This document shows positions 3,064 to 8,100 of a DNA stretch of 9,632 nt, in pieces. A program made the position numbers and the translations under genes. Position 1 is the first letter of the stretch, and every line of letters starts with the position of its first letter. The notes beneath the pieces are model-generated. The model ran no database searches, was not told where the DNA came from, and saw only the letters and a list, made by a program, of their open reading frames with translations. The stretch is from JAFGIT01 sp016929465 [NCBI: Candidatus Coatesbacteria bacterium] (GTDB lineage Bacteria > B130-G9), in the NCBI GenBank assembly GCA_016929465.1, contig JAFGIT010000238.1:1-9632 (forward strand), given 5' to 3'.

Positions 3064-3113
3064 GACGCTCAATTGTTAAGACCCCCTAATCGCATTTTGA
3101 AGAGGAGATAGGC

Positions 3114-4028
3114 ATGAAGCGCATTATGTTCGCAATCGTCCTGCTATTGGTTGCAGCCACGTTCTCGACGGTTGCGTTAGCTGAAGATGAGGAGACCGCA
3201 ACGGCCGAAAAGGCCCTTAAATTCAAAGTGGGTTTGAAAGGCTTTTATGGTTCTTGGGACTTCGAGAACAGTGAAGTATGGGTTAAGGGCGTAAAGGGCA
3301 ACTATGATATGACCTCCGAGGTGGGCCCGTTTGGTCCCTTCGTTGAGCTTTCATTCGCCAAGGACCATCTGGGGCTTAGCGCCCAATATTTGGTCGGCAG
3401 GTTCGGTGGCGACTATCACGTCCGGAATGATCGGAATGAAGGCTGGTACGAGACCAAGGAAAAAGGCACCCTAGAAGTCAAGCGGGAGGATATTGAGCTT
3501 CTCTTGAGACTGACCCCCTTTCCGAGATATATCTCGCTTCTCTTTGGCTACAAATGGCAGAAATACTATAACTTCGACTTCAGCGGTCATGGAATCTGGA
3601 CAGAGTATGACGGCGGCTTCGATGTGCCGGTAGGGACACACGAGTACGATATGCGGCATGAGGAGAGAAACCGCATGCACGGCTTCATGTATGGACTCGC
3701 CCTCGAGTCACCGACTTACTCGGGATTCTATGCGTGGGCAAATGGCGTGCTGATGCCAAATCTGAATCTGAAGTATGATAGCTACATGCGCTATGACTAT
3801 GACGATCCCACCATCGAGAATAATGTCGTCTCCGGATGCTTCTCGGGCCGCCTGAAGAGCTTCAAGACTGAGCTGGGTCTCGCTTACGCCTGCGAGGGGA
3901 CGCCTCTGGAATTCAAGGTCGGTTGGTATCTGCAGAGGACAAAAGCATCTGAGGACAAGGCAAAAGAAGCGCCGATCTTCAATGATAATATGACGGGTGC
4001 TATCTTCTCCGTAGCTTACACCTTCTAG
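3114..4028 (+). CDS. Secreted protein, probable outer-membrane beta-barrel
   Basis: The family was not recognised. The 304-aa product starts with a clear Sec signal peptide: MKR, a hydrophobic core IMFAIVLLLVAATFSTV, then ALA before EDEE, giving likely cleavage near residue 23. The mature part has no further membrane helix. It is rich in Tyr, Trp, Phe and Gly in alternating patterns (for example FKVGLKGFYGSWDF, LGLSAQYLVGRFGG, YISLLFGYKWQKYYNF, FKVGWYLQRT) and ends AIFSVAYTF, the terminal-Phe beta-strand used for Bam-dependent insertion of outer-membrane barrels. Charged loops such as NDRNEGWYETKEKG would lie between strands. The ATG has GAGGAG six bases upstream. It stands alone between the epimerase and tRNA-Pro with its own promoter-like element. 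Role (porin, adhesin or other) unknown. Confidence 0.75.
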   Translation: MKRIMFAIVLLLVAATFSTVALAEDEETATAEKALKFKVGLKGFYGSWDFENSEVWVKGVKGNYDMTSEVGPFGPFVELSFAKDHLGLSAQYLVGRFGGDYHVRNDRNEGWYETKEKGTLEVKREDIELLLRLTPFPRYISLLFGYKWQKYYNFDFSGHGIWTEYDGGFDVPVGTHEYDMRHEERNRMHGFMYGLALESPTYSGFYAWANGVLMPNLNLKYDSYMRYDYDDPTIENNVVSGCFSGRLKSFKTELGLAYACEGTPLEFKVGWYLQRTKASEDKAKEAPIFNDNMTGAIFSVAYTF

Positions 4029-4034
4029 CGAGTT

Positions 4035-4060
4035 AGAGTAGTCCTCGACAGACTGACTCT
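4035..4060 (+). terminator. Hairpin between the beta-barrel gene and tRNA-Pro
   Basis: AGAGT-AGTC (4035-4043) pairs with GACT-G-ACTCT (4051-4060), a 9-bp stem with one bulged G and a 7-base loop, just after the stop codon. No T-run follows. It may end the upstream message or shape the tRNA precursor leader. Confidence 0.3.
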
Positions 4061-4072
4061 GAGAATACTCTC

Positions 4073-4149
4073 CGGGGCGTAGCGCAGTCCGGTAGCGCAC
4101 CGGTTTTGGGAACCGGGGGTCGGCGGTTCAAGTCCGCCCGCCCCGACCA
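4073..4149 (+). tRNA. tRNA-Pro (anticodon UGG)
   Basis: The sequence folds by hand into a complete cloverleaf of 77 bases including CCA. The acceptor stem CGGGGCG (4073-4079) pairs perfectly with CGCCCCG (4139-4145). The D arm is GCGC/GCGC and the anticodon stem CCGGT/ACCGG surrounds the loop TTTGGGA, giving anticodon TGG at 4107-4109 with G37 following, as usual for tRNA-Pro. The T arm is GGCGG-TTCAAGT-CCGCC, then discriminator A and encoded CCA (4147-4149). Its 3' half is duplicated at 6826-6865, so this gene is the apparent integration target of the island downstream and was left intact. Confidence 0.97.
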
Positions 4150-4151
4150 CT
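4112..4151 (+). repeat. Putative att site, tRNA-proximal copy
   Basis: The 3' half of tRNA-Pro from the anticodon stem to two bases past the CCA matches 6826-6865 at 37 of 40 positions, with the last 28 bases (4124-4151) identical. Identity that covers a tRNA 3' end and stops just outside it is the classic product of tyrosine-recombinase integration. Confidence 0.75.
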
Positions 4152-4170
4152 TCACGCAAGCCGTTTAGCC

Positions 4171-4227
4171 GCCGTTGTGTGGATTGTGTGTTCGGCAAAG
4201 GCTGCTCATCTGGCGGTTGTGTGGATT
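4171..4227 (+). repeat. Short direct repeats next to the att site
   Basis: GTTGTGTGGATT occurs at 4174-4185 and again at 4216-4227, exactly 42 bases apart (four helical turns). The flanking triplet matches too except for one base (gcc versus gcg). The pair lies within 80 bases of the tRNA 3' end, where recombinase or accessory-factor sites would be expected, but no protein partner is visible. Confidence 0.4.
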
Positions 4228-4238
4228 CCACAACTGCC
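4212..4238 (+). other. Strong stem-loop just inside the island
   Basis: GGCGGTTGTG (4212-4221) pairs with CACAACTGCC (4229-4238), 10 bp with one G-U, around a 7-base loop. No T-run follows it. It contains the second copy of the GTTGTGTGGATT repeat, so it may be a protein-binding palindrome or the end of the tRNA transcript. Confidence 0.4.
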
Positions 4239-4503
4239 CCATCTAGTGCTGGTTTGTCCTGTCGCGTGATTACATGAGCAGGATAGTAACTGCACAGGGA
4301 TGCGTATAGTGGGGCCACGGTACTGAGTTGCGTGGGTGGAGTTCCTTAAACCGTGACCACCGGCGTGGTGTCTGAACACTGTGTTAAGCGTCTTTTCCAG
4401 CTGCTCCTAGTGAACACGGCTCGGGGCCCGGCCTTTTGCTTTCGACGAGTTCCAAACACGACCTTGCTGACCGTGAATTGGATTTTCCGGGGCTCGGATG
4501 GGA
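4239..4503. other. Gene-free stretch inside the island
   Basis: No credible coding frame or RNA gene was found between the stem-loop after tRNA-Pro and the promoter at 4504. A GC-rich segment at 4418-4433 followed by TTTTGCTTT is only weakly terminator-like because its stem is very short. The DNA may be remains of lost element genes. Confidence 0.4.
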
Positions 4504-4533
4504 TTGAGAATCGCCTCGAGTTCATGCTATAGT
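4504..4533 (+). promoter_or_regulatory. Strong sigma-70-like promoter for the island lipoprotein
   Basis: TTGAGA (5/6) and TATAGT (5/6) are separated by 18 bases, and TGC directly precedes the -10 to give an extended -10 (TGCTATAGT). Transcription would begin near 4540 and run into the short ORF at 4579 and the lipoprotein gene. It is the best promoter match noticed in the window. Confidence 0.6.
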
Positions 4534-4578
4534 CTGGCGGGTGGTATGTTCAAGCCAATTCTATGGGAGGAAAAGAGA

Positions 4579-4644
4579 ATGCGAAGTCTTGGTCTTGTTG
4601 TGGTGGGGTCGTTGTCCTGTTTTGTCTTTACGCTCTTCGTTTGA
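4579..4644 (+). CDS. 21-codon hydrophobic signal-peptide-like ORF
   Basis: Reads MRSLGLVVVGSLSCFVFTLFV. GGGAGG ends exactly 8 bases before the ATG, and the promoter at 4504-4533 would start transcripts about 40 bases upstream, so initiation here is well supported. The product is one Arg plus an almost entirely hydrophobic stretch with an LSC lipobox-like spot, that is, a signal peptide without a mature domain. It is in the same frame as the lipoprotein at 4744, and that frame stays open from the TGA at 4642 to 5658, so it may be a truncated 5' end, a leader peptide or a small membrane peptide. No family recognised. Confidence 0.45.
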   Translation: MRSLGLVVVGSLSCFVFTLFV

Positions 4645-4669
4645 GGTGCATATTCAACGTGGAGACACC

Positions 4670-4759
4670 ATGCCTTTCCTCTTTTTGCAGAACTATTCAC
4701 ACAGCACCAAGGTAACTCATGGTATTTCCCTTACGAAGGAGTCATGCAATCCGTGTTAA
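4670..4759 (+). CDS. Possible 29-codon ORF overlapping the lipoprotein start
   Basis: ATG at 4670 follows GGAG with 5-base spacing and reads MPFLFLQNYSHST to CNPC. It overlaps the ATG of the lipoprotein gene by 16 bases, an arrangement that could couple translation. The peptide has no recognisable motif beyond two Cys near its end, and the ORF may be fortuitous. Confidence 0.2.
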   Translation: MPFLFLQNYSHSTKVTHGISLTKESCNPC

Positions 4760-5658
4760 AGCGGAACAGGACGAACGGTGATACTGCTGACCGACGTTGG
4801 TGCCGCTTCTCGCTCGCACTGCGTTTGTCCTTTGTCGCTCTTTGCTCAATCGTGAGCCTCTGGGGATGCTACCAGGAACGTGAGAACTGGGCCTGGCTCT
4901 CGGATGATGGCATAGTGAGGGTCTATCTTTGGCACGACTGCGCGATGCTGAGCGATATACGTAAGGGTGTTTCTTTGAAGAGGGCCTGCAATCGTGCCGA
5001 ATTTGATGAATTCAGCGAATTGCGATTCGAAGGAGACTTGGAACCTCTGGGTTGGCCCAGTTCAACCAAGATAAGAAAACCTTGCGCTGATCAGCTCTTG
5101 CTCATCGGGCCCGAAGGCCAGGTTTTAAAGAGATTCCAAAGAGTACAAGCGCCAAGAACAGCAAAGGACCTTGCACGAATGCTGAGCCTGCGGCTATCTG
5201 ACAATCAGTACTTCGCTTTACTTGCAGAGGGTTGGGATTTGATCACGGTACCGGGTTTAGATCTCGGCCGGGTGTACTACGATTCCAAGGTAGAGGATAG
5301 GCTCGAGCTTGTTACTACCAATGACGACAAGCCAGCGTTGATTGCAGAGCTCAGTCGCATACCCCCGAGATCTCTTTGGGACCACTCACTTGACGCGAAG
5401 ACGGAATCAGAGGTGATTCTAGCGCGTCTGATTGGCTTATGCAAAGACAGGCTCACAAAACTGGAGTATATCGAGCTACACCTGTCCGCTAAGGATGATT
5501 TCGGCAATGTCGCCGAATACGACATACGATTCAGACCAGGTTGTAACTATGTGAACCAGAACGACGAAGAAATAAGGTCTGCGATAGCCACCGAGATCGA
5601 AATAGTTCGTGATACTGCGTCAGGGAAGAAATGGCGATTCACATACACTCAGAAATAG
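4744..5658 (+). CDS. Hypothetical lipoprotein inside the tRNA-Pro island
   Basis: No family recognised. The protein has a long basic N-region (KRNRTNGDTADRRWCR), a hydrophobic core LSFVALCSIVSL and a lipobox-like LWGC, predicting lipidation at Cys42 and about 263 mature residues anchored in a membrane. The mature part is soluble-looking and charged, with several Cys (for example WHDCAM, KRACNR, RKPCAD, LCKDR, RPGCNY), a long stretch of alternating polar and aliphatic residues after 200, and an end at KKWRFTYTQK. The start is uncertain: AAGGAG ends only 2 bases before the ATG, whereas GTG at 4753 lies 11 bases away; both keep the signal peptide. Trp at the -2 lipobox position is unusual. It is the only full-length gene in the island and has its own promoter and upstream short ORFs. 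It could be cargo of the mobile element or a resident gene trapped between the repeats. Confidence 0.65.
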   Translation: MQSVLKRNRTNGDTADRRWCRFSLALRLSFVALCSIVSLWGCYQERENWAWLSDDGIVRVYLWHDCAMLSDIRKGVSLKRACNRAEFDEFSELRFEGDLEPLGWPSSTKIRKPCADQLLLIGPEGQVLKRFQRVQAPRTAKDLARMLSLRLSDNQYFALLAEGWDLITVPGLDLGRVYYDSKVEDRLELVTTNDDKPALIAELSRIPPRSLWDHSLDAKTESEVILARLIGLCKDRLTKLEYIELHLSAKDDFGNVAEYDIRFRPGCNYVNQNDEEIRSAIATEIEIVRDTASGKKWRFTYTQK

Positions 5659-5669
5659 GCCGTCCTATT
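5654..5669 (+). other. Hairpin over the lipoprotein stop codon
   Basis: AATAGG and CCTATT form a perfect 6-bp stem with loop CCGT, and the TAG stop at 5656-5658 lies in the left arm. There is no T-run, so it is more likely an mRNA 3'-end structure than a terminator. Confidence 0.25.
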
Positions 5670-5773
5670 ATGTGCCCTGCCATTGTACTGACGGTATCAC
5701 TCCCCACGGGAATGAAGTAGATTCTGCGGAGGCAAAATGCCCCGCCGCTTGGTTAATCCGTTGGCCGGCATCC

Positions 5774-5778
5774 AGGAG
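5774..5778 (+). promoter_or_regulatory. Ribosome binding site of the 58-codon ORF
   Basis: AGGAG ends 8 bases before the ATG at 5787, optimal spacing, and is the main support for translation of this short ORF. Confidence 0.5.
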
Positions 5779-5786
5779 AAAAGATC

Positions 5787-5963
5787 ATGATTAGCCATAC
5801 AATGCTCACAACCTTGGAAGCGATTTTTTGCTTGGCAATAACTGCGTGTCAAATGATCTCTGCGGGCCCTAGAGAAGTTCGGACCAGCGTGAACGCAAAG
5901 CTCTCTTACGCGTTGGTGCAAGCGAATGAGGTACCTTCATTAAGTGTGCAGATCCCCAGTTAG
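5787..5963 (+). CDS. 58-aa putative small lipoprotein or truncated lipoprotein
   Basis: A short ORF with an optimally spaced AGGAG. It begins MISHTMLTTLEAIFCLAITAC: a hydrophobic stretch ending in ITAC, a good lipobox, predicting lipidation at Cys21. The remaining 38 residues (QMISAGPREV to SLSVQIPS) are polar and end at TAG 5961-5963. No family was recognised, and the mature domain is too short for a typical fold, so this may be the 5' end of a longer gene cut by the transposase remnant that begins just downstream on the other strand. The acidic residue in the hydrophobic stretch (LEA) weakens the signal-peptide reading. Confidence 0.4.
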   Translation: MISHTMLTTLEAIFCLAITACQMISAGPREVRTSVNAKLSYALVQANEVPSLSVQIPS

Positions 5964-5969
5964 GCGCTT

Positions 5970-6230
5970 CCCTTCCTTCCTCAACATCTTGTTGGCTACC
6001 CTCGACGCAGATCACGGCCTCAAACACCTGTTTCATAACGTCCAGGGCCTTCAAGTCCTTGAGCCCTTTGTCGCTATCGTCAACATCTTCCATAAGACAT
6101 TGCTCTCATTCTCGTCCTTATTAAGACGCTTGGCCGGGTCAGTTCGCAGACGAACGCTTGCGAACGGCGATTTCACGGGATTCGCCGTCGGAATGTGCCT
6201 CCAGTGCTGATTGGGGATTAGTTGGGCCAC
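5970..6230 (-). pseudogene. IS256-family transposase, C-terminal remnant with frameshift
   Basis: Minus-strand translation gives NQHWRHIPTANPVKSPFASV followed by RLRTDPAK and NVLWKMLTIATKG. By recalled family patterns this matches the mutator/IS256 transposase C-terminus (xHWxHxRTTNPIESxFATVRLRT...VIWKMLxVAEKxFRRLKAPELM). The match then moves to the next frame: KGLKDLKALDVMKQVFEAVI then CVEG, corresponding to KRFRRLKAPELMKEVxEG. The shift lies near the CCCTTT at 6064-6069. The catalytic DDE domain (at least 250 residues) is missing, and the upstream end stops 25-40 bases after the livF remnant. No terminal inverted repeat was found. Non-functional; it shows that insertion sequences and deletions shaped the island. 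Confidence 0.7.
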
Positions 6231-6254
6231 CTCTATTGGCCACCCTCCAGGGGC

Positions 6255-6822
6255 CTACAGAAACAGCCGCTTAAGAGTCTCCTTGTCCCGCTGCAGCTCA
6301 TCCGGTAGCCGGAGAAAGACACTTTACCCAGCTTGAGCGAGTACACACGCTGGCAGACCTTCAGAATCTCCCGCACCTTCTGTTCAACGATCAGGATGGC
6401 CACGCCCGTTTCACGATTGATTTGGCCTGTCTTCTCGAAGACGTCGTCCAGAAGATTCGGAGCCAAACCAGGTGAAGGCTCATCGAGCATAAGCAGCTTC
6501 GGCTTCGGAACCAACGCCCGTGCCAGCGCCAACATCTGCTGCTCGCCGCCGCTCAGCCTCCCCGCTTCTCGTCGGGTTCGCTCTTTCAGGGCAGGAAACA
6601 TCTCAAGCACCAGCCCGACACGGTCCTTTAGCTCCTTAGAAGGGAGTTGAAAGCCCCCGATCTCGAGGTTCTACATCACGGTCAACTCGTCGAAGACGTG
6701 ATTGCCTTGAGGCGCGAAGGTAATGCCGCGAGCGACGTTCTTGGCCGGACTTGCGCCGTTCGTCTTCTGGCCGTTGAATATGATCTCGCTCTCCGACGAC
6801 CGGATTGGATCCACAAAGACAC
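6255..6822 (-). pseudogene. livF: livF-like branched-chain amino acid ABC transporter ATPase, decayed
   Basis: An ABC ATPase of the LivF type, which in intact form powers uptake of branched-chain amino acids at the inner membrane. Visible in order on the minus strand are EIIFNGQKTNGASP, the Q-loop region GITFAPQGNHVFDELTVM, the signature LSGGEQQMLALARAL, Walker B KLLMLDEPSPGLAP, and ILIVEQKV, the LivF-style Gln in place of the H-loop His. There are three lesions: the N-terminus including Walker A is absent, because homology starts near 6800 beside the tRNA-Pro repeat; a TAG at 6671-6673 replaces the Glu codon of TVMENLE; and a frameshift near 6300 moves the natural ending ELQRDKETLKRLFL, with its stop at 6255-6257, into another frame. 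About 190 of the usual 235 codons remain. No other liv gene is nearby. Confidence 0.85.
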
Positions 6823-6825
6823 CGG

Positions 6826-6865
6826 ACCGAGGCTCGCCGGTTCAAGTCCGCCCGCCCCGACCACT
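6826..6865 (+). repeat. Putative att site, distal copy (tRNA-Pro 3' fragment)
   Basis: Carries the T arm, 3' acceptor strand and CCA of tRNA-Pro. It is identical to 4124-4151 over 6838-6865 and matches 37 of 40 over the full length. There is no 5' half: the bases from about 6787 do not contain a CGGGGCG acceptor strand, so it is a fragment, not a second tRNA. It marks the far end of the island. Confidence 0.75.
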
Positions 6866-7008
6866 ATCCAGCAGCAGACTCACCGATTCTGCCCCAGAGG
6901 ATCGGGAAATTAACGGTGGCCGACCTTCTCCTGATACAGGACAATTGGCATTTGTGTTCTGATGTTATCCTGGCCGAAGGAGGAAATGCTCCTACCCCAG
7001 AGATCGTC
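6866..7008. other. Short spacer between island and glycan genes
   Basis: No gene. Two small inverted repeats are present, TCCTG-ATA-CAGGA (6929-6941) and AGGAG-GAAATG-CTCCT (6978-6993). Neither has a T-run on the minus strand, so no convincing terminator for the leftward operon is seen. Confidence 0.35.
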
Positions 7009-8100
7009 TTAATCCCTCTTTTTCTCATACTTCTCCGCAAGGGCCGCCACGTGCTTCTCCAGATACGCGAGCGTCTTGAGGGCGAGGAAGAGGCCCATCG
7101 CCAGGATGATGAGGATGAGGAAGGAGAACCTGAATGGAATCAATACCGTGATGAAGGCGATGACGCCGAGATACGCTGAGATGAAGTAGATCAGCCGCAC
7201 CGCCTGCCGCTGCGAAAGGCCGAGGGCGAGCAGCCGGTGATGGAGGTGCTCCCGGTCCCCCTGGAAGGGATGCGTCCCGCGAATGAGCCTTCGGAAGAAC
7301 GCAAGCCCGGTATCCATCAAGGGCACCGCCATCGACGCAATCGGGACCAGCAGGGCGACCGCGACCGTGCTCTTCGAAGTGCCTAAGAGAGACATCGCGG
7401 CGAAGATGAAGCCGAGACAGTTACTCCCAGTGTCACCCATGAAAATGCTGGCCGGCGCGAAGTTGTATTTCAGGAATCCAAGGACTGCACCAGCGATTGC
7501 GATCGAGATAAGGGCGATATCATAGTCGCTCCTGTAAATGGCGACTGACATCATGGTTAGTGATGCTATGAAGACTATACCGGCCGCGAGGCCATCCAGC
7601 CCATCTATCAGGTTGATTGAATTGGTCAGGCCCACGACCCACAGCACGGTCAGCAGAATGCCGACTGCTGCGGGGACTGCAATCGAGCCCGAGGGGGATA
7701 GGGGAGACGTGAACTTTTCGATGTTGAAGCCGTAGAGCAAAAGGACCACCGTTGCAGCGACCTGGCCCGCGAGCTTGAAGATCGGTCGGATATCCCTAAT
7801 ATCGTCATAGATGCCGACCGCCATGAGGATCAAACACCCGATGAAGACGCCGGTCAACTTGTCCGCCAAAAGCTCCTCGAATCCCGAGTGCAGCCATATC
7901 CCAAGCAAAAGCGACGCGACGAATGCGACCAGGATCGCGACCCCACCGAGCGACGGGACTGGACTGGAATGGATCTTCCTCCTGCCCGGGGCGTCCATCG
8001 CGCCGATTCGCCTTGCGACGGACCTGACCACGGGAGTAAGCGCCAGGGAGAGGCCGGTGCCGACTATGAACACAAGAGCGAAAACGAGGGCTAAATTCAT
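7009..8100 (-). CDS. WecA/TagO-type polyprenyl-phosphate GlcNAc-1-phosphate transferase
   Basis: A 363-aa multi-pass inner-membrane enzyme of glycosyltransferase family 4 (MraY/WecA). It transfers a HexNAc-1-phosphate from UDP-sugar to undecaprenyl phosphate, the first step of O-antigen, ECA, teichoic acid or exopolysaccharide synthesis. Motifs in order: GRRKIHSSPVPSLGG (substrate loop after the first helix), VGIYDDIRDI (Asp pair for Mg2+), the NLIDGLDGLA core, FAPASIFMGDTGS, and GDREHLHHRLL (the HxHHR signature that separates WecA/TagO types from MraY). About ten or eleven hydrophobic segments are visible, with a charged cytosolic tail EKYEKKRD. The ATG start fits the family, though no strong Shine-Dalgarno precedes it. 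It lies 79 bases after the FAD enzyme on the same strand, probably one operon. The sugar is likely GlcNAc, by family only. Confidence 0.9.
   Translation of the reverse strand: MNLALVFALVFIVGTGLSLALTPVVRSVARRIGAMDAPGRRKIHSSPVPSLGGVAILVAFVASLLLGIWLHSGFEELLADKLTGVFIGCLILMAVGIYDDIRDIRPIFKLAGQVAATVVLLLYGFNIEKFTSPLSPSGSIAVPAAVGILLTVLWVVGLTNSINLIDGLDGLAAGIVFIASLTMMSVAIYRSDYDIALISIAIAGAVLGFLKYNFAPASIFMGDTGSNCLGFIFAAMSLLGTSKSTVAVALLVPIASMAVPLMDTGLAFFRRLIRGTHPFQGDREHLHHRLLALGLSQRQAVRLIYFISAYLGVIAFITVLIPFRFSFLILIILAMGLFLALKTLAYLEKHVAALAEKYEKKRD

Follow-up and report, generated by a model that had tools for sequence, protein, structure and literature searches.

An integrase-less segment at tRNA-Pro in a Coatesbacteria genome as a putative decayed element, and a related integrase subfamily beside tRNA 3' halves

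Integrase-less remnants bounded by attachment (att) sites are described as cis-mobilizable elements (CIMEs) in the cited part of PMC5704250. Among the genomic islands at ssrA in Dehalococcoides, 15 have no integration module according to the cited part of PMC3146451, and CIME-type remnants may be among them. Flexible islands of Methylophilaceae, from 330 bp up, are preceded by 20-nucleotide (nt) repeats of tRNA ends (PMC10872708, in the section cited). We analyzed a complete contig of 9,632 nt, referred to as the window, from a Candidatus Coatesbacteria genome (JAFGIT01 sp016929465; assembly GCA_016929465.1, contig JAFGIT010000238.1). Here, a segment at approximately positions 4112–6865 starts in the 3' half of a tRNA-Pro gene and stops at a second copy of this half. 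With a probability of about 0.58, we regard the segment as the remnant of an integrative element of tRNA-Pro, which is decayed, integrase-less, and CIME-like. Bounded by repeats that resemble left and right att sites (attL and attR) and devoid of integration genes, it would act at most like a CIME.

The genome holding the window (G000) is a 3.19-Mb assembly of 423 contigs and is 86% complete. Relatives were searched with positions 3100–8100 as the query in 60 genomes, its own included. Three others (G001 to G003) are members of the same family but of different genera; with the other 56, G000 has no rank below the domain in common. No further genome of its genus was among the 60. Contigs are given as C-numbers (e.g., G002:C44), and loci or stretches drawn from G000 to G003 as L-numbers.

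The two copies of a 40-nt direct repeat, at 4112–4151 and 6826–6865, are identical in 37 positions (93%), and their starts are 2714 nt apart. All three mismatches fall within the first 12 positions, and 6838–6865 is matched in 28 of 28. The repeat search thereby reproduced the figures of the initial annotation. ARAGORN detected one full tRNA, tRNA-Pro(TGG); the right copy is the 3' half alone and is not a tRNA gene. The segment is closed at its far boundary by a direct repeat of the tRNA 3' end. Past the tRNA end plus 2 nt, the copies diverge and have little sequence in common: an anchored alignment of the two post-repeat flanks (CCA included) was equalled by 1–11% of random segments, depending on length. 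The 22-nt core GGTTCAAGTCCGCCCGCCCCGA was then searched in the four whole genomes G000 to G003 with at most two mismatches. It was found at five places (two in G000, one in G001, two in G002, none in G003), and its reversed control was found at none. Both G000 places lie inside the window.

A six-frame search of the whole of G000 for the tyrosine integrase domain PF00589 gave two matches, neither on the window's contig. This bears out the earlier statement that the island has no integrase and supplies the genome-wide search that had been proposed with it. Since no integrase gene lies inside the segment next to one of the att sites, we filed it as a remnant and not as an intact element. The confinement of the repeat to the tRNA 3' half plus 2 nt, together with contents that are decayed or orphan (see below), argues for an element of tRNA-Pro.

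A second argument comes from the integrases of the lineage. PF00589 was matched 19 times in G000 to G002 and not in G003, and nine of the 19 matches have a tRNA 3' half or a full tRNA downstream on the same strand. Eight of the 19 passed a strict T-stem test, with the stem 170–222 nt past the domain end (background, 0.0095 T-arms per kb); the ninth tRNA-linked integrase, L064, was seen by inspection and matches tRNA-Arg(cct). These nine are also the matches most strongly related to the integrase linked to tRNA-Pro. The exception is L071, a G001 fragment that is 55% identical to the latter over 65 amino acids (aa) yet lacks a neighboring tRNA half. No tRNA half accompanies the remaining nine matches, which are either more weakly related or gave no hit. 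Seven of the nine tRNA-linked modules match one full tRNA of their own genome (alignment score 42–49, probes of 46–49 nt), namely Leu-tag, Arg-tct, Ser-tga, Arg-cct, Gly-gcc, Val-tac, and Pro-tgg. For the two tRNA-Leu(taa)-like modules (L027 and L063; anticodon by eye), no matching full tRNA was among those retrieved. It looks as if one integrase subfamily of this lineage had repeatedly used different tRNA genes, of seven or more species, as landing sites. This subfamily adjoins tRNA 3' halves in the lineage of the window, in one case beside tRNA-Pro, which supports the assignment of our segment to a tRNA-Pro element.

The orientation of such elements can be read directly from L066, in which the integrase is followed by a tRNA-Gly 3' half and then by a complete tRNA-Pro. 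As a full tRNA-Gly precedes tRNA-Pro(ggg) in G000 and G003, the integrase end is the right end of an element at this locus, with host DNA beyond it.

The tRNA-Pro-linked module lies on G002:C44, where a frameshifted integrase of the subfamily stands beside a tRNA-Pro 3' half; the full tRNA-Pro is on G002:C227. DNA at the integrase end of C44 matches the flank of this tRNA-Pro in 18 of 21 columns, a better match than with any other of the 48 tRNA flanks compared (random fraction 0.0025). The match is a single stretch without a repeat pair and sits in the 3' end of the integrase gene, farther from the tRNA half than in other pairs. With reserve, and judging from these sequences, C227 and C44 may carry the left and right ends of one element. 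A difficulty is posed by purine-biosynthesis genes (recognized by eye; conserved in G000, G001, and G003) about 600 nt to the left of the C44 integrase, as they imply that some rearrangement must have occurred. The window is connected to this module by the sequence after its tRNA: positions 4149–4303 align with DNA beside the tRNA half of C44 in 105 of 163 columns, a score reached by none of 1000 random segments. This homology supports the view of the segment as an element.

The DNA following 125 distinct full tRNAs (28 in G000, 48 in G001, and 49 in G002) was also examined, a subset of the 39, 52, and 51 Rfam tRNA matches, partial ones included, in these genomes. Some full tRNAs are followed by a box close to TTATAGCCGCCTTCCCGGCGATTT, a consensus picked by eye from a few of the same sequences, so that its enrichment is partly circular. 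Among the 121 tRNAs with enough sequence, a direct-repeat pair of at least 7 nt was present at +75 to +135 in 10 of 18 box-positive and 8 of 103 box-negative cases (Fisher test, 8.7e-6); in random segments, the rate was 9.5%. In G001, the box follows 10 of 48 tRNAs, and these 10 include all five whose 3' half is linked to an integrase in that genome (252/1,712,304, ~1.5e-4).

When DNA between integrase and tRNA half was compared with 45–48 tRNA flanks, the cognate flank ranked first in four of seven pairs (random fractions: Leu-tag, 0.0050; Ser-tga, 0.0000; Gly-gcc, 0.0000; Pro-tgg, 0.0025). It was not the best in the other three (Arg-tct, rank 38; Arg-cct, rank 6; Val-tac, rank 11). The arm of the Arg-tct-linked integrase in G001 instead matched a tRNA-Pro flank best, and the repeat pair TGCACACTGAGTGCACAC is present in identical form after tRNA-Arg(tct) in L232 (G000:C159) and after tRNA-Pro(tgg) in L028 (G001:C84). 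The pattern is what a single arm specificity shared by two tRNA targets would give. In L061, a box-like sequence (p 0.003) and a direct-repeat pair lie beyond the tRNA half, as in tandem elements, and this locus is a possible precedent for tandem stacking.

These observations can be combined into a wider picture, which we hold tentatively and at a little short of even odds. A single subfamily would have colonized many tRNA genes (Leu-tag, Leu-taa, Pro, Gly, Val, Arg-tct, Arg-cct, and Ser), each element bringing its own post-tRNA box and integrase-arm repeats, with stacking in tandem at some tRNAs. The first-ranking matches between left end and integrase side would allow both ends of an element to be paired across unjoined draft contigs, and, at tRNA-Pro, the window would preserve one old layer of a stack of this kind, without its integrase. 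If this is true, one integrase subfamily has switched among many tRNA targets, with the tRNA half, the box, and the arm repeats all readable. Target switching and tandem stacking would then be open to study in genomes known from fragmented assemblies alone. To us, the lineage-wide integrase set is more interesting than the segment itself.

The most serious competitor, unlikely but deserving real weight, is that the left side of the window is a native, unoccupied tRNA-Pro site with 4149–4303 as ancestral DNA. The half at 6826 would then be the scar of a separate event, such as the att site of another element or the rearrangement of an array. Several observations point in this direction and weigh against an integrative element between the two copies. 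The G002 homologue of 4149–4303 lies just beyond the integrase end, on the outer side where native DNA is expected and where host DNA follows the tRNA half in L066; the left end of that G002 element seems to be at the full tRNA-Pro. Position 4151 may therefore not be an element edge. From its sequence, 4149–4303 could be native DNA downstream of the tRNA, or it could have formed the left arm of an older element, with the G002 element stacking over that one afterwards. Its conservation cannot decide between the two, because native post-tRNA DNA is no less often conserved between these genera: a score of 59, that of this pair, is reached or exceeded in 28 of 62 box-negative tRNA pairs. The argument that a conserved left flank must be mobile was rejected for this reason.

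Further points against an integrative element concern the box, the arm, and the composition. The box after the window's tRNA is weak against the consensus (p 0.044), although stronger against single flanks (L067, 0.0008; G001, 0.0021). No exact repeat pair follows this tRNA at about +75 to +135, and no integrase or arm remains by the right repeat copy. The GC content of the segment, 0.49–0.59 in 600-nt windows, is like that of the flanks. A 12-nt direct repeat after the left tRNA was discarded as a signal, since an equally long one was present in 25 of 824 control segments.

The right flank was compared with post-tRNA DNA of G002 and G001. End-anchored alignments of three lengths gave random fractions of 0.0008–0.0029 (G002) and 0.0013–0.043 (G001). 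The signal was weak without the CCA (0.012 and 0.040), and in a 200-nt local alignment, 87 and 806 of 1000 random segments did as well, which again speaks against the favored explanation. A native right flank was dropped as a proof, being clear in one anchored test and weak or absent in two others.

An empty-site comparison at tRNA-Pro failed, G001 to G003 being of other genera and synteny around the locus being scrambled between G000 and these three relatives. Genes of the wecA-side flank are on other contigs in G001 and G002, away from tRNA-Pro and with other neighbors. The outer-membrane-protein-like gene beside tRNA-Pro is retained in G001 (59% protein identity) and G002 (48%), and the neighbors to its left differ. 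When named genome contigs were scanned with an alignment of this protein, one locus came up, evidently that of G002 itself.

We prefer an older element to a native left site, because it alone explains the right copy, on the same strand, 2.7 kb off, and with decayed genes in between. A native site leaves this nearby copy in the same orientation without explanation, and in L061 the DNA beyond the integrase end looks like that of a tandem element. The initial annotation had proposed a small or deleted integrative element. Of this, the repeat ending with the tRNA, the decayed content, and the lineage integrases at tRNA halves speak in favor; the left edge at 4151 is uncertain, and the right flank has no stable match.

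The preferred history would be as follows. The element, as one unit with its left edge at the tRNA, would have entered the 3' end of tRNA-Pro via a tyrosine integrase of the subfamily linked to tRNA 3' halves. At the left end, the tRNA would thereby have been restored, while the 3' half that it lost came to lie at the right end. The integrase and the flanking arm may then have been lost by a deletion with one endpoint in the tRNA half or at its edge. Finally, insertion of an insertion sequence (IS) and decay would have reduced the contents to a single surviving lipoprotein-like gene beside the IS256 remnant and the truncated LivF gene (Table 1).

Table 1. Coordinates of the features in and around the tRNA-Pro segment of the window
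Feature	Position	Strand	Basis
Full tRNA-Pro(TGG) gene; proposed left attachment site in its 3' half	4073..4149	+	ARAGORN
Left copy of the 40-nt direct repeat (tRNA 3' half + 2 nt)	4112..4151	+	Repeat search
Post-tRNA segment homologous to DNA right of the integrase and tRNA-Pro half in G002:C44	4149..4303	+	Local alignment
Lipoprotein-like open reading frame (ORF), 304 aa, intact, orphan	4744..5658	+	ORF; signal peptide/lipobox by eye
Remnant: 3' end of IS256-family transposase gene and terminal region	5927..6224	-	DNA matches to relatives
LivF/UrtE-type ATP-binding cassette (ABC) ATPase pseudogene, N-terminal part missing	6258..6826	-	Profile and sequence matches
Right repeat copy (tRNA-Pro 3' half); proposed remnant right attachment site	6826..6865	+	Repeat search

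The ORFs and profile matches agree with the mosaic described earlier, one intact lipoprotein gene among decayed fragments with intact genes outside; the latter are glmS, an NAD epimerase gene, and outer-membrane-protein-like, wecA-like, and PRK07208-like genes. The 304-aa protein has an N-terminal hydrophobic stretch and, as judged by eye, a lipobox-like cysteine. It matched no family in Pfam above the cut-off and none in NCBIfam, its sole further match in G000 to G003 was judged spurious, and its structure prediction was uninformative (mean predicted local distance difference test score, 37.3). Searches of plasmid, phage, and viral-contig sequences likewise gave no match for it, nor was an att pattern matched in viral contigs, and a phage or plasmid source for the cargo was rejected.

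The IS256 remnant has 69–78% DNA identity to L033, L034, and L035, and the L033 transposase was assigned to NF033543/PF00872. The ATPase pseudogene is broken by stops and frameshifts. UrtE is its best NCBIfam model, far under the cut-off, as a fragment would give, and its best other match in G000 to G003 is 41% over 73 aa. Its homology fades at 6806–6826, where the right repeat copy begins. A fragment at its 3' end (104 nt, 88% identical) is shared with L036 (G001:C176), positions 622–725, upstream of a SIR2-domain gene. No transfer genes were detected among the scanned ORFs, the family scan covering those of at least 60 aa outside 4152–4743; within this scope, the segment has neither integration nor transfer genes, as a CIME would.

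The initial annotation had also considered a passenger moved by a recombinase in trans. In our terms, this would be a passenger or CIME still mobilized by a related integrase encoded at another locus of the genome. The attL/attR-like repeats are retained, and G000 does encode a related tyrosine integrase (L040, G000:C331, positions 2–1301); aligned in pieces, it shares 36–57% identity with the G002 integrase linked to tRNA-Pro. However, this gene has an in-frame stop and is followed by a tRNA-Leu 3' half, the LivF pseudogene directly adjoins the right half, no arm region remaining, and the contents are decayed. We found no direct support for mobilization in trans and consider it improbable.

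Slightly less probable still is a contig misjoined at the 28-nt exact repeat. G000 is a fragmented draft and the window a whole contig, but the copies differ just upstream of their identical part, and final assembly k-mers are usually longer than 28 nt. Least probable of all is a fortuitous segmental duplication of a tRNA fragment, which would fit the local lack of an integrase but not a copy that stops at the tRNA 3' end, as the integrase-linked halves of the same family do.

Two side observations concern the relatives. In G001:C84, positions 1–18099 (L079 and L028 1–8100), a very long open frame (3333 and 2700 codons in the two stretches, which are mutually in frame) is convergent with tRNA-Pro, and the part scanned encodes bacterial immunoglobulin-like domains. 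In L185 (G001:C155) and L191 (G002:C103), ARAGORN predicted low-scoring tRNAs with the anticodons CTA ("Pyl") and TTA ("Stop"); a pyrrolysine system was rejected, there being no PylS match over the cut-off in three genomes.

Compared with the closest known systems, the segment resembles CIMEs and decayed remnants of integrative and conjugative or integrative and mobilizable elements, as characterized in the cited part of PMC5704250, in its attL/attR-like repeats at a tRNA 3' end, its lack of integration and transfer genes, and the signs of tandem accretion in its lineage. It differs from them in that its att sites are putative, the right integrase arm is missing, and the content is much smaller and consists mostly of pseudogenes. 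Tycheposons span 4–200 kb in the cited section of PMC10872708; our segment is smaller and has no tyrosine recombinase within it, but it shares with them and with other flexible islands the tRNA boundary and a tyrosine recombinase in the lineage. The ssrA islands of Dehalococcoides, as covered in the cited part of PMC3146451, use a single target and the DsiB integrase, in contrast to the tyrosine integrases and several tRNAs seen here. As at our locus, the boundaries are an RNA gene and direct repeats derived from the 3' end of that gene; some of these islands have no integration genes, and tandem arrays occur. As the literature search does not settle whether a system of one integrase family with many tRNA targets and matched arms has already been described, we claim no priority for it. 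The segment in the window belongs to a known kind of integrase-less tRNA scar and, by itself, is an ordinary one.

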